Below are positions 16,548 through 30,387 of a DNA stretch of 34,051 bases, in pieces; the first letter of the stretch is position 1, and each line of letters opens with the position of its first letter. This stretch comes from an uncultured Merdimonas sp. GTDB taxonomy: Bacteria; Bacillota; Clostridia; Lachnospirales; Lachnospiraceae. The translations under genes and the position numbers were made by a program. The notes beneath the pieces are model-generated. The model saw only the letters and a list, made by a program, of their open reading frames with translations. It ran no database searches and had not been told where the DNA came from. The stretch is from the NCBI GenBank assembly GCA_944375745.1, contig CALWAV010000013.1:1-34051 (forward strand), written 5' to 3'.

Positions 16548-16999
16548 GCAAGCTCCTCCAGCATCTGTGCCGGATTTTCCGCAGCCTTTACCTTATCAAA
16601 GGCCTTTGCAATGATTCCGTTTTCGTCAATCAGGTACGTGGTACGCACCACGCCCATGGACACCTTTCCGTAATTTTTCTTCTCCTTCCAGACATCATAG
16701 GCCTGAATCGTCTGAAGCTCCGGATCTGAGAGCAGCGTAAAGGTCAGTCCCTGTTTTTCCTCAAACCGTTTATGAGAAGCCACGGAATCTTTGCTGACCC
16801 CCAAAATCACCGCGCCCTTTTCCTCAAACTGGGGGCGGAGCTCTGAGAAACCGCAGGCCTGCCTCGTGCAGCCTGGTGTATTGTCCTTCGGGTAAAAGTA
16901 AAGAATCACCTTTTTCCCGGCGTAATCAGAAAGGCTGTGCATTTCTCCATTCTGATCGGGAAGGGTAAAATCAGGCGCTTTTGTTCCAATCTCAAGCAT
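16544..16999 (-). CDS. bcp: thiol peroxidase of the Bcp/PrxQ type
   Basis: 151 aa, peroxiredoxin fold. The peroxidatic Cys is C44 in DNTPGCT and the resolving Cys is C49 (RQAC), the atypical two-Cys spacing of Bcp/PrxQ. The late VVRTTYLIDENGIIAKAF segment is also typical. It reduces hydroperoxides using thioredoxin. GGAGGAG precedes the ATG at 16999, and a TATAAT-like -10 lies at 17052-17057. It overlaps yaaA and forms a two-gene oxidative-stress operon. Confidence 0.95.
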   Translation of the reverse strand: MLEIGTKAPDFTLPDQNGEMHSLSDYAGKKVILYFYPKDNTPGCTRQACGFSELRPQFEEKGAVILGVSKDSVASHKRFEEKQGLTFTLLSDPELQTIQAYDVWKEKKNYGKVSMGVVRTTYLIDENGIIAKAFDKVKAAENPAQMLEELA

Positions 17000-24804: not shown

Positions 24805-25830
24805 TCAGTACAGGCTGCCCGTATTTACAATGGGCTGGGCATCGTGGTTTCCGCAGAGAACTACCAGAAGGTTGGACACCATGGCGGCCTTGCGCTCGTC
24901 GTCCAGCTCCACCGTATGCTTCTCATCGAGACGCTCCAGAGCCATCTCCACCATACCGACCGCTCCTTCCACGATCATTTTTCTGGCATCAATGATTGCC
25001 GACGCCTGCTGTCTCTGCAGCATCACCGCCGCAATCTCCGGCGCATAAGCCAGATAGGTGATGCGCGCTTCCAGAATCTCCAGACCCGCATCCGCCACTT
25101 TGTTCTGGATCTCATTCCGGATACGCTCTGCCACCACTTCACTGGATCCCCGCAGGCTTCCCTCATCGGCGATGCCGTCTCCCGTGGTGTCCACGCCCGG
25201 AGCCACATCATAGGGATAGATGCGGACGATATTGCGCAGGGCGCTGTCACACTGGAGGGAAAGGTATTCCTTATAATTGTCCACCTCAAACACAGCTTTT
25301 GCCGTATCCACCACACGCCACATAACCGCGATGCCAATCTCCACCGGATTGCCCAGGCAGTCGTTGATCTTCTGCCGGTTATTGTTCAGCGTCATGATTT
25401 TCAAGGAAATCCGCTTACCGATTGCTTCTGATGTACCCGCCTGCACTGCCACATTCACTTGCAGCTTATTCGCGTCATTCACATCCCCGCTCTGGTTCAG
25501 CCGGGTCTTTGCCGCCGGATTCACTGCCGTACAGAAGGGATTCACGTAGTAGAAACCTTCTTCCTTCAGGGTCCCCACATATTTTCCAAACAGCGTCAGC
25601 ACCAGGGCCTCCTGGGGCTTGAGCACCTTCAGTCCACACAGAGGAATCCAGCCAAGAGCCATCCAGAGGCCTCCGATAACAATCAGCGTCACCGCCAGAG
25701 GCATCAGAGTCCCCGCATCCGCCATCACACAGCCGATCACGAAAACTCCTATCCCTGCCGCATAGAGCAGCAGAATCAAAAACAGCATGGCCAGCCCGTT
25801 CTTTTTTCCGTTCAGTATTTTCTCCTGCAT
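24805..25830 (-). CDS. SPFH/band-7 domain membrane protein
   Basis: 341 aa. Two N-terminal hydrophobic helices (about residues 14-38 and 43-62) precede the SPFH domain, with LKPQEALVLTLFGKYVGTL and EEGFYYVNPF at its start. A helical region follows (ERIRNEIQNKVADAGLEILE, QRQQASAIIDARKMIVEGAV). Proteins of this kind form membrane-bound oligomers that organise membrane domains or regulate FtsH-type proteases. A GTG at 25833 is possible, but the ATG at 25830 has better spacing to AGGAGG. It has a consensus promoter and is followed by the Arc-like gene. Confidence 0.9.
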   Translation of the reverse strand: MQEKILNGKKNGLAMLFLILLLYAAGIGVFVIGCVMADAGTLMPLAVTLIVIGGLWMALGWIPLCGLKVLKPQEALVLTLFGKYVGTLKEEGFYYVNPFCTAVNPAAKTRLNQSGDVNDANKLQVNVAVQAGTSEAIGKRISLKIMTLNNNRQKINDCLGNPVEIGIAVMWRVVDTAKAVFEVDNYKEYLSLQCDSALRNIVRIYPYDVAPGVDTTGDGIADEGSLRGSSEVVAERIRNEIQNKVADAGLEILEARITYLAYAPEIAAVMLQRQQASAIIDARKMIVEGAVGMVEMALERLDEKHTVELDDERKAAMVSNLLVVLCGNHDAQPIVNTGSLY

Positions 25831-25859
25831 CACGCATTCCTCCTCTTTTTGATATCAAA

Positions 25860-25998: not shown

Positions 25999-26553
25999 TT
26001 ACCAGCGGGAGTCCATATCTCCCTTTCCTCTTCCGAACGCCAGCACAATGCTGTCCACGCCCAGCAGCACCAGATAGCAGCCGATAATCGTATCCAGGGA
26101 CAAAAGCGTGACCGCCGGACTGAACAGCATCAGCACTGCCAGGATCAGTCCCAGAATGTTCAGAATCAGCGTCAGATAATAGCTGAACGGATTCAGAAAT
26201 TTCAGGATGCGGGGCTGGGTCGCCAGTCTGGAAATACAGTGGGCCAGAAACCACAGCGGAAACAGCACCGCGGCGGCTATGCTTCCCGCTCCCGGGTACA
26301 CCAGCAGCATGACTCCGGCCATAACACTTAAGATGCCCGAAATCAACGACAGGATAGGTCCAAAGCCCGTGTACCGTTCCATCTTTACGTAAAATACAAT
26401 ATCTGCAATACCCGTGAGCACCGCCAGCAGTCCATACAGGATCACCAGTCCTGTCAGCGCCATGCCGGGATGGCTCAGGGTCCATATTCCAAGAATCACC
26501 AGCAGGATCCCTATGATAAACTGCATCCATCTGAAGCCTGAATATCTCCTCAT
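25999..26553 (-). CDS. HdeD/DUF308 family membrane protein
   Basis: 184 aa with six hydrophobic segments and almost no soluble loops. The opening WMQFIIGILLVILGIWTLSHP and the repeated hairpin layout with GxxxxxxGI motifs are typical of HdeD-like proteins, which in enteric bacteria take part in acid resistance. The role in Clostridia is not known. It begins three bases after the ftsH stop with AAGGAGG before the ATG, and is the last gene of the coiled-coil/ftsH/hdeD operon. Context points to membrane stress or quality control. Confidence 0.85.
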   Translation of the reverse strand: MRRYSGFRWMQFIIGILLVILGIWTLSHPGMALTGLVILYGLLAVLTGIADIVFYVKMERYTGFGPILSLISGILSVMAGVMLLVYPGAGSIAAAVLFPLWFLAHCISRLATQPRILKFLNPFSYYLTLILNILGLILAVLMLFSPAVTLLSLDTIIGCYLVLLGVDSIVLAFGRGKGDMDSRW

Positions 26554-26556
26554 GTT

Positions 26557-28377
26557 TTACGCCTCCTTACGATCCAGAATTTCCATAAATTCTTCGCCTG
26601 TGATCGTTTCCTTCTCATACAGGTAATCCGCCAGTTCATCCAGCTTCTTCCTGTTCTGCTTCAGGATTTCAACAGCCTTTGCATGCTGTTCCTTTACAAT
26701 CGCCACAACCTTTTCATCGATTTCCTTCTGAGTCTCAGGTGAGCAGGCCAGAGAGGTATCTCCGCCCAGATACTGGTTGTTTACCGTCTCCATGGCTACC
26801 ATATCGAAATCATCGCTCATGCCGTAGCGGGTAATCATGGCCCGGGCAAGCTTTGTGGCCTGCTCGATATCGTTGGAGGCACCTGTGGTAATCTCTCCTA
26901 ATACCACTTCCTCGGCAGCCCGTCCGCCGGTGTAGACCGCAATCTTGTCCTCTATCTCTTTCTTGGTCAGCAGATATTTATCCCCCTGCTCCACCTGCAT
27001 GGTATAGCCCAGCGCGCCTGAGGTACGCGGAATAATCGTGATCTTCTGTACCGGAGCTGAATGGCTCTGCATGGCTGCCACAAGCGCATGTCCCGTCTCG
27101 TGATAAGCCACCACACGCTTCTCCTGATCGGAGAGCACGGCATTCTTTTTCTGATAACCTGCGATGACTACCTCGATGCTTTCCTCCAGATCCGCCTCCG
27201 TCACGTAAGACCGTCCGTCACGCACCGCACGGAGAGCCGCCTCGTTTATGATATTGGCCGGCTCCGCGCCGGAAGCTCCTGCCGCCATCCGGGCAATCGT
27301 GTGGAAATTCACGTCGTCCGCCAGCTTTACCTTTTTCGCGTGCACCTTCAGAATATCCTCTCTTCCCTTCAGATCAGGCAGCTCCACCGGGATGCGCCGG
27401 TCGAAACGTCCGGGTCTTGTAAGCGCCGGGTCCAGGGATTCCGGCCGGTTGGTTGCCGCCAGAATCATGACTCCCGTATTTTCCTCAAAGCCGTCCATCT
27501 CTGTCAGAAGCTGGTTCAGAGTCTGCTCCCGTTCATCATTGCCGCCCATCTGTCCGTCACGCTTCTTTCCGATGGCGTCAATCTCATCGATGAAGACGAT
27601 ACAGGGCGCTTTTTCCTTGGCCTGGCTGAACAGGTCACGCACCTTGGAGGCTCCCATTCCTACGAACATCTCCACAAATTCCGAACCGGAAATGGAGAAG
27701 AAGGGCACGTTCGCCTCTCCGGCCACCGCCTTGGCCAGCATGGTCGTTCCTGTGCCGGGAGGGCCGACAAGAAGAAGGCCCTTTGGCATGGAAGCTCCCA
27801 CCTCGGAATATTTCTTCGGATTGTGAAGATAATCCACAATCTCGGCCAGGCTTTCCTTGGCTTCCTCCTCGCCTGCCACATCATCGAAGCGGATGCCCTT
27901 TGTGGACTGCACATAGACCTTCGCATTGCTCTTTCCCATGCCGAAGGCCATGGAATTCTTTCCGCCCATCTGCTCCATCAGCTTCTTGTTCATGTACTGT
28001 CCCAGGGCGATGAAAATCACCAGCGGAATCAGGAAGGTCAGAAGGCTTGACAGCAGGGAGGAAGAACCGTCGTCCATATTTCTGTCAAAGACCGCGCCTG
28101 CGTCATAAAGCCTCTGGGTCAGCGTGGGATCTTCCATAACTCCCGTCCGGTATATCTGGGTTTCATCCTTATCGGTAAACAGAATCTGGGAATTGTCCAC
28201 CTCTACCCTTCCTATATTTTCATCCTCGATCATACTCATAAAAGTTCCATAATCCACATCTGTCACCTGTGCCCTGTTCAGCATCGGCGTCAGAAAAATA
28301 TTCGCCAGCAGAATGACCAGCAGCACAATGCCGTAGTAATAGTACAAAGGCTTCTTCGGCGATTTTACTTCTTTCAT
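26557..28377 (-). CDS. ftsH: FtsH-type membrane AAA+ zinc protease with altered Walker A
   Basis: 606 aa. Transmembrane helices lie at about 12-30 and 107-127, with a short extracytoplasmic domain between. The AAA+ domain has Walker B FIDEID (263-268), pore motif FVGMG, sensor ATNRPE and arginine fingers RPGRFDRR. The protease motif is HETGH (426-430) with the distal ligand in [11 protein letters not shown]. The striking feature is Walker A: GPPGTGTT (205-212), where Lys211 is Thr (codon ACG at 27747-27745; AAG expected). A second oddity is GAEP at 371-374, with Pro373 where Leu is usual. Without the lysine, ATP binding and unfolding should fail while the zinc site stays intact. It lies between a coiled-coil gene and hdeD; the genome may carry another FtsH elsewhere. 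Confidence 0.93.
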
Positions 28378-28401
28378 GTTCTCTCCTCCATTTCTGTATG
28401 A

Positions 28402-28803
28402 TTAAGACAGCTCCTCTTCTGCCTGTTTCCCAATTGCCTCCAGGGAAATCAGAAGCGCCCGGTCCGCGGCCTGGCTTGCAAAATCCAGGCTGTATTCCGC
28501 CAGGAGCAGCCATTCCTCCGGGGAAATCTTTTCCTGGCCGTTTTCCATCTCATTCCTAGCCTTACGGACTGTCTCCTCCATTTTTTCATAGATCCTCGAT
28601 ATTCTTCCAGCCATCTCCGACCTGCTGAACTTCAGTCTTCTGCTTAAATTCTGCTGTTCTTCTTCGCACTCCCGGCGGACGAGCTTCGTTTCCCGGGCCA
28701 GGCTGTTCCTGTCAGAGGTCTGGCTGAACTGAATTCTGCTGTGAAGCCTTCCCAGTTTTTCATCCAGTTCACACAGCTTCACCGAAAGCAGCTCATGAGC
28801 CAT
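28402..28803 (-). CDS. 133-aa coiled-coil protein upstream of ftsH
   Basis: I recognise no family. The protein is mostly alpha-helical, rich in Glu, Arg and Leu with heptad-like spacing (LCELDEKLGRLHSRI, EEEQQNLSRRLKFSR, ISRIYEKMEETVRKA), and has no membrane segment. The frame is open to 28857. I chose the ATG at 28803 because AAGGAG lies ten bases upstream, and because an extended -10 (28856-28864) would start the transcript inside the longer frame. It ends 24 bases before ftsH and leads that operon. An adaptor or regulator for this FtsH is possible. Confidence 0.72.
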   Translation of the reverse strand: MAHELLSVKLCELDEKLGRLHSRIQFSQTSDRNSLARETKLVRRECEEEQQNLSRRLKFSRSEMAGRISRIYEKMEETVRKARNEMENGQEKISPEEWLLLAEYSLDFASQAADRALLISLEAIGKQAEEELS

Positions 28804-28855
28804 ATATACCGCACTCCTTTCCCTTTGCAGTCTCCTGTTCCTCTCATCAAGAAGC

Positions 28856-28864
28856 ATTGTAGCA
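28856..28864 (-). promoter_or_regulatory. extended -10 promoter for the coiled-coil/ftsH/hdeD operon
   Basis: TGCTACAAT on the minus strand is a TG-n extended -10. The -35 region is poor. The start of transcription would fall near 28849, about 45 bases before the ATG at 28803. Confidence 0.5.
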
Positions 28865-28911
28865 GAGCTTTTTCCGAAAAACCATGATCAGAAATTTCCT
28901 TCTGTATAGAC

Positions 28912-28949
28912 AAAAAGACCGAAGTGTAAAAATTTTTTACACTCCGGCC
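28912..28949 (-). terminator. terminator of the TetR gene
   Basis: A stem of about 16 bp, gaccgaagtgtaaaaa with ttttttacactccggcc (28917-28949, one G-U), is followed by TTTTT on the minus strand (28912-28916). Confidence 0.88.
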
Positions 28950-29000
28950 AGTTCTGTAAAAACATTTTTCATATCAAACACGCGGGATAACAGGCGCTTT

Positions 29001-29552
29001 TCAAAACGTATCTTTTTCTCCCATGGGCGCCATCTCTCCCTTCAATATCCGGTAAACGCTGTGAACAATATAGTCCAAATCCTGTGTGTCCTTCTCGGTC
29101 CAGCTCTGCAGGAGTCCCATAAGCGCCTCGCAGTGGTAGCGGATAATCAGCCGGGCATCCCTGCCGCTGTAATCCTGATACAGCCCGCCTTCGGCCGCAG
29201 CCTGCTCGAAAAAAGCATAGAAAGTCTCTCTGATAATCGCTTCCAGCTCGTCCCGGTAGTTGGACGCAATTCCCTGGCGCACATAGGGTTGAGCGTTTAA
29301 AAGCATCAGAAACAAATACCTGAGCTTCCCTTCCGCGCTCTCCTGCTCCATACATTCCTGAAGCAGTTTTTCCGATCCTCTCTGTAAAATCCACCGGAAC
29401 AGATCCGGAATATCCTCAAAGTGGTAATAAAAGGTCTGCCGGGTGATACTGCACTCCTCCACAATGTCCTTCACCGTCAGCTTTTTAACCTTCTTTTCCA
29501 TGATAAGACGTCTCGCTGCCTCCGCTATAATCTCCTTCATATCCACTGCCAT
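29001..29552 (-). CDS. TetR/AcrR family transcriptional regulator
   Basis: 183 aa. The N-terminal HTH reads KKLTVKDIVEECSITRQTFY followed by YHFEDIPDLFRWI, the classic TetR recognition helix. The C-terminal half is a ligand- or dimer-binding helical domain without recognisable specificity (DhaS-type regulators are similar in size). It has its own promoter (29604-29632) and terminator, so it is monocistronic. It lies between the Opu importer and the ftsH operon. Which gene it controls is not clear; no obvious palindrome was found over its promoter. Confidence 0.9.
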   Translation of the reverse strand: MAVDMKEIIAEAARRLIMEKKVKKLTVKDIVEECSITRQTFYYHFEDIPDLFRWILQRGSEKLLQECMEQESAEGKLRYLFLMLLNAQPYVRQGIASNYRDELEAIIRETFYAFFEQAAAEGGLYQDYSGRDARLIIRYHCEALMGLLQSWTEKDTQDLDYIVHSVYRILKGEMAPMGEKDTF

Positions 29553-29671: not shown

Positions 29672-30387
29672 TTATCCGTTCTTCTTCTCTCCCGCACCGC
29701 TGTATTCGCAGTCCGCCAGCCGGTCATCGGGCAGGTGGCAGATACGCCGCTCCTGATCCACCAGCTTTTTCACAAACTCCGTGGCAGGGTGCCGCAGCAG
29801 CTCCGCCGGTGTGTCATACTGCTGAATCTCTCCTTTATCCATGACAAGCACCTTCGTGCCAAGCTTCAGAGCCTCGGAAATATCGTGGGTCACAAAGAGC
29901 ACGGTAATGCCTGTCTGCTCATAGATCCGGCGCAGCTCCGTCTGAAGCTGGGAGCGGGTCAGCTCGTCCACCGCCCCGAAGGATAACGGCTTTTCAGCTC
30001 TTCCTCCAGCCCCACGATTTTCATCCATTTGCTGACCGCCTCTTTGGTCCTCTGTCTGTCTCTCTTATTGAGCAGATTCGGCACGTAAGAAATATTCTGC
30101 TCCACCGTCATGTGGGGAAAGAGCACGCTTCCCTGAATGGCATAGCCGATATTTCTGCGAAGCTCTGTCTGGTTCTTTTCCCGTATATTCTCCCCGTCTA
30201 TCAGAATATCTCCCGCCGTCGGGGAAATCAGTCCGTTTACCATCTTCAGGGCTGTGGTCTTACCGCAGCCGGACGAGCCGATGATGGTGACAAACTCTCC
30301 TTTCTCAATAGACAGGTTCAAATCCTTCAGTACCACTTTGTCTCCATATGCCTTTTTGATATGCCGAAATTCAATCACTGTCTGCAT
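29672..30387 (-). pseudogene. Opu-type osmolyte ABC ATPase, broken by a deletion
   Basis: The first fragment (30387 to a stop near 29957) has Walker A GSSGCGKTT, Q-loop YAIQGSVLFPH and continues to LKSRYPS, where it leaves frame and stops. The second frame resumes at FGAVDELTRSQLQTEL with the H-loop VTHDISEAL and ends at 29672. The part between, which should hold the LSGGQ signature and Walker B DEP, is missing. The junction is at CCTTCGG (29976-29982 on the minus strand), a string that would occur both in the PSE codons and in the PFG codons. A single deletion of about 88 bases between them explains both the loss and the frameshift. The transporter should lack an energising subunit unless another copy exists. 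Confidence 0.9.

Follow-up and report, generated by a model that had tools for sequence, protein, structure and literature searches.

The window analyzed here, i.e., a stretch of 34,051 nt of DNA from an uncultured Merdimonas sp., contains an ftsH paralogue followed and preceded by genes on the same strand (Table 1). FtsH_ext, AAA, AAA_lid_3 and Peptidase_M41 all score above their curated Pfam cut-offs in the encoded protein, with AAA_lid_3 spanning residues 355-399. With the usual motif names and roles, we observe that Walker B (D264/E265), the pore phenylalanine (F238), both arginines of the SRH (R324/R327), the HExxH motif (His426/Glu427/His430, in the exact form HETGH that few of the compared sequences have) and the downstream zinc aspartate (Asp503) are all retained, and that the open reading frame contains no stop and no frameshift. 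The Walker A motif reads GPPGTGTT. This confirmed the starting observation of a first-pass annotation of this DNA, namely that a single base (ACG in place of AAG, at 27747-27745) converts the Walker A lysine to threonine while the remaining motifs are intact. The protein is an FtsH by descent, as judged from its domains, its HExxH and zinc aspartate and its grouping with sister-species orthologues; since the threonine at residue 211 departs from the Walker A consensus GxxGxGK[TS], even with the Walker B DE, pore phenylalanine and SRH arginines in place, we class it on its sequence as an FtsH by descent only, and not as a working ATP-driven FtsH.

Table 1. Position of the ftsH paralogue, its two altered codons and the neighboring genes in the window
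Feature	Position	Strand	Remarks
SPFH/Band_7 protein	24805..25833	(-)	further downstream; also beside G011, G001, G003 and G002 orthologues
hdeD/DUF308 membrane protein	25999..26553	(-)	immediately downstream of ftsH
ftsH paralogue	26557..28377	(-)	606 aa; FtsH_ext, AAA, AAA_lid_3, Peptidase_M41
Codon CCG, Pro373, otherwise Leu, AAA lid region	27259..27261	(-)	alignment and codon comparison
Walker A codon ACG, Thr211, Lys expected	27745..27747	(-)	AAG in L006, L007, L008
139-aa protein, no Pfam match	28402..28821	(-)	upstream; recurs near ftsH of this type
TetR-type regulator	29001..29552	(-)	upstream of ftsH

To place this residue among other FtsH proteins we used a set collected by similarity to the 606-aa protein, the sampling of which is uneven. 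Of 182 loci, 173 have a segment across residue 211 at a tblastn E value of 1e-80 or below, giving 154 distinct segments (by first source: genome contigs, 80; genus, 48; family search, 25; viral contig, 1). These represent 153 distinct genes, as the L116 segment covers part of the gene already counted in L021. Lysine is present at residue 211 in 152 of the 153 genes (153 of 154 segments) and threonine in the window copy only, i.e., this is not a loosely conserved site. The nine loci with no segment over residue 211 (L025, L115, L118, L120, L121, L122, L129, L151 and L152) include one broken orthologue (L025 and L121, see below) and a further partial slice of the L021 gene (L115). Two others, L152:46-3306 (+) in G007 and L151:2306-5443 (-) in G015, encode proteins of 1086 and 1045 aa in the reading used here, respectively, in which AAA_2, a second AAA domain and Peptidase_M41 are fused and FtsH_ext is absent among the families shown; judged by these predicted domains they are an unusual FtsH-type fusion, and their M41-linked AAA domains read GKT. 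Thr211 itself is known from one draft assembly of 162 contigs that is 83% complete. The relatives from genome contigs are the best 80 of 575, all at 81% or less, so that records of the window's genome itself or of its near relatives are possibly absent from them, and no conspecific was found among these 80; a scan of IMG/VR for another record of the species returned two distant matches only (45 and 33%).

Intact orthologues are present in three sister species (L006, L007 and L008, with 96%, 94% and 91% identity), and all three encode lysine with AAG. A tree of 29 rows, built without G002, groups the window copy with G011, then G001, then G003, with all of these groupings starred, and this grouping places the Thr211 change on the terminal branch. 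The fifth copy in the genus, that of G002 (L025/L121, G002:C70:83077-84755), is broken: approximately 139 nt are deleted from Walker A onward, with a shift of frame, in a gene starting 126 nt from the contig end; a lysine is read at the deletion junction, where the ancestral state of the codon is doubtful. Threonine as a variant of a clade was rejected, since the intact sister-species orthologues and all other distinct genes have lysine.

The arrangement seen in the window recurs among the compared ftsH genes. Among the 103 distinct ftsH genes having at least 700 nt of downstream sequence, 38 have hdeD within 1000 nt, and this ftsH-hdeD pair (25999-29552 in the window, and 38 other distinct genes) often occurs together with an upstream tetR and a small uncharacterized protein. 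Inspection of the residue in orthologues next to hdeD, as the first-pass annotation had suggested, found lysine in all 38 of the other distinct copies, the window gene being the sole threonine among 39. An SPFH gene follows the pair in the five genus loci vs none of 61 others with at least 3000 nt downstream, and by analogy with HflK/C its product is a possible FtsH partner. Further upstream in the window, an ABC ATPase gene (29672-30387 (-)) that adjoins an osmoprotectant-type ABC transporter gene is missing 88 nt relative to G001 and G003 (junction near 29973), a deletion that removes the ABC signature region, shifts the frame and splits the open reading frame in two. In G003, the opuBC-like permease/binding-protein gene (L119 about 16559-16596, G003:C6) matches as two overlapping pieces, suggesting that the transporter locus with the disrupted ATPase gene in the window may be broken in this species as well.

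Our comparison also identified a change that the first-pass annotation had overlooked. Residue 373 (codon 27261-27259), located after GA[DE] in the alignment of the AAA lid region, is leucine in 152 of 153 covering segments and proline in the window copy only; the three intact orthologues have CTG, CTG and CTT at this codon. A second altered core residue suggests damage to the protein, and L373P could additionally impair folding. A third change, F493L, is near-private, leucine occurring in one other row of 120.

The remainder of the gene has evolved under constraint. Between the window and G011 copies dN is 0.020 and dS 0.508 (ratio 0.040), and dN/dS lies between 0.031 and 0.062 over all ten ftsH pairs. 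Counting as private those codons at which the other three copies agree exactly, synonymous and nonsynonymous changes number 26 and 4 in the window, 39 and 3 in G011, 53 and 6 in G001, and 74 and 17 in G003. These values indicate that purifying selection acted on ftsH along most of its own branch and give no hint of a long relaxation, and Thr211 is therefore judged to be recent or not real, unless a precise change arose under otherwise unchanged constraint. An old pseudogene was rejected on the same ratio (0.04) and the lack of a stop.

Error in the assembly was addressed by counting private radical changes (BLOSUM62 score of -1 or below) in the 11 window genes that were compared with relatives. 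The window has 14 and G001 has 13, and on this basis the window is no noisier than usual and ftsH is no outlier. The 14 are distributed over spoIVA (5), opuBC (5), a ferredoxin-like gene (2), tetR (1) and ftsH (1), with none in six genes (RNR, rnhA, permease, SPFH, hdeD and the 139-aa protein). The ftsH count is thus L373P, in 558 shared codons, whereas the other ten genes together have 13 over 3305 codons, K211T being outside it because this codon is missing from G002; ftsH as a standout in such changes was accordingly rejected once all 11 genes had been counted. Across the wider set, 15 of 106 other FtsH proteins have private changes, one to three each, at columns that are invariant in the rest. 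The window gene is left out of this count, as is the divergent L002, which has 28 private changes and is the only member of its subgroup in the set; 12 rows that were duplicates and 4 that were short (L025, L072, L090_365 and L121) were dropped beforehand. Ten of the 15 carriers are MAG or uncultured records and five are named isolates (L040, L057, L075, L097 and L114), with the L040 record titled UNVERIFIED_CONTAM. L090 (365 aa) was rejected as an FtsH, as HEFGH is present and the AAA part absent.

Our search for a second ftsH, also proposed in the first-pass annotation, found four M41 genes in the 83%-complete draft (G000), and hence at least four in this bacterium, three of them in addition to the Thr211 copy (on C138, C4 and C31), all three with GPPGTGKT; the closest, on C31, is 70% identical to it. 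Because three ftsH genes with an intact Walker A remain, loss of the Thr211 copy is plausibly tolerable. Inactivation had been held to be implausible if the orthologues all had lysine and the genome had no second ftsH; the first is what we find, and the second is not.

Taken together, these data most likely describe a copy that was broken recently, or else a sequencing error, rather than a new kind of enzyme. The reading that we place first, at a little under an even chance, is a loss-of-function allele that arose recently, is private to this assembly and affects a redundant FtsH paralogue linked to hdeD. K211T and L373P are both private, the gene was otherwise under purifying selection and three intact ftsH genes are left; the 88-nt deletion in the ABC ATPase gene is a loss allele of another gene nearby, though it too could be an assembly fault. 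Against a loss allele, the change is seen in a single draft assembly only, there is no ftsH-specific signal of decay beyond the two residues, and there is no stop or frameshift. Ranking close behind, and a serious contender, is a consensus or assembly error, with AAG as the true codon and the protein an ordinary FtsH. A single-base difference confined to one draft assembly is what such an error would look like, singletons at invariant columns are common (two thirds of their carriers being MAG or uncultured records), and the G002 orthologue is broken in a gene that starts close to a contig end. Error would, however, have to strike one gene twice if L373P is also false; L001 and L004, the two other FtsH proteins of the same genome with close relatives in the set, have zero private changes at invariant columns, the private radical changes in the window match the rate in G001, and the named isolates among the singleton carriers show that such changes are not confined to MAGs.

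The first-pass annotation had offered, besides a recent loss mutation and a sequencing error, both of which stand, a regulatory paralogue and an energy-independent protease. As traits of a lineage these two fall, since the three intact orthologues and the 38 hdeD-linked copies keep lysine and the invariant L373 is also changed. We consider it unlikely that a pseudo-ATPase subunit has been selected in which the Thr211 FtsH joins mixed hexamers and dampens or redirects other FtsH as a natural dominant-negative: the protease site, pore phenylalanine, arginines and membrane part are all intact, the genome has other FtsH copies, and mixed FtsH hexamers are known from photosynthetic organisms (PMC9020784), but the lysine of the three intact orthologues and of the 38 other hdeD-linked copies argues against it, L373P points to damage, and the closest own-genome paralogue, the putative partner, is just 70% identical. 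Somewhat less probable again is a newly arisen ATP-dead subunit, kept because it would poison or tune mixed hexamers with the cell's other three FtsH proteins. Least credible of all, and very improbable, is a membrane protease that would need no ATP to act on unfolded or short substrates; HExxH and the zinc aspartate are intact, but Thr211 is in none of the relatives compared, and the pore phenylalanine, Walker B and arginines all keep the form typical of ATP-driven enzymes, as recent ancestry predicts.

If Thr211 is real, the likely defect in ATP use put forward in the first-pass annotation holds up, and normal use of ATP would not be expected of the subunit. Loss of the Walker A lysine would abolish normal ATP binding and hydrolysis, substrates would then not be pulled into the intact protease chamber, and the other FtsH copies would make up for the lost function; such a subunit would fold yet be ATP-defective, inactive alone, and might weaken its partners in mixed hexamers. 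A real change would also suggest that this genus can lose its hdeD-linked FtsH, and would provide a natural Walker A-defective FtsH allele open to testing. If it is an error, it illustrates how often public genomes have single private changes at sites that are otherwise invariant, as in 15 of 106 other FtsH proteins.

Canonical bacterial FtsH (e.g., PDB 7tdo and 2ce7, with Thermotoga maritima among the sources) have the same domain order, pore loop, Walker B, arginines and zinc-site region as the window copy, with PDB 7tdo similar over nearly the full length of the 606-aa protein (residues 18-603); the window copy differs from both by the lysine-to-threonine change in Walker A and the leucine-to-proline change in the lid region. 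In PDB 3kds, presumably an engineered K207A mutant of Thermotoga FtsH, the aligned sequence has alanine where the window copy has a natural threonine, and therefore the cytosolic part of FtsH can fold and crystallize without this lysine. Among the matches listed in a limited survey of open-licence papers in PubMed Central, no title or abstract opening concerned a natural bacterial FtsH without the Walker A lysine, which does not prove that none exists. In paraplegin this lysine touches the beta-phosphate of the nucleotide, and its counterpart in p97 is essential for ATP hydrolysis (PMC2734466). In photosynthetic organisms, photosystem II repair is compromised if type B FtsH has its ATPase inactivated, but not if its protease is inactivated (PMC9020784). 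The plant FtsHi proteins (PMC8197885) are likewise relatives of FtsH with one catalytic function lost, but their defect is the reverse of that in the window copy, with the zinc site lost and the AAA+ domain intact. Furthermore, FtsHi are conserved lineages, whereas the Thr211 copy retains its zinc site and its predicted inactivity is not conserved across species, and on both counts it lies outside the FtsHi type.
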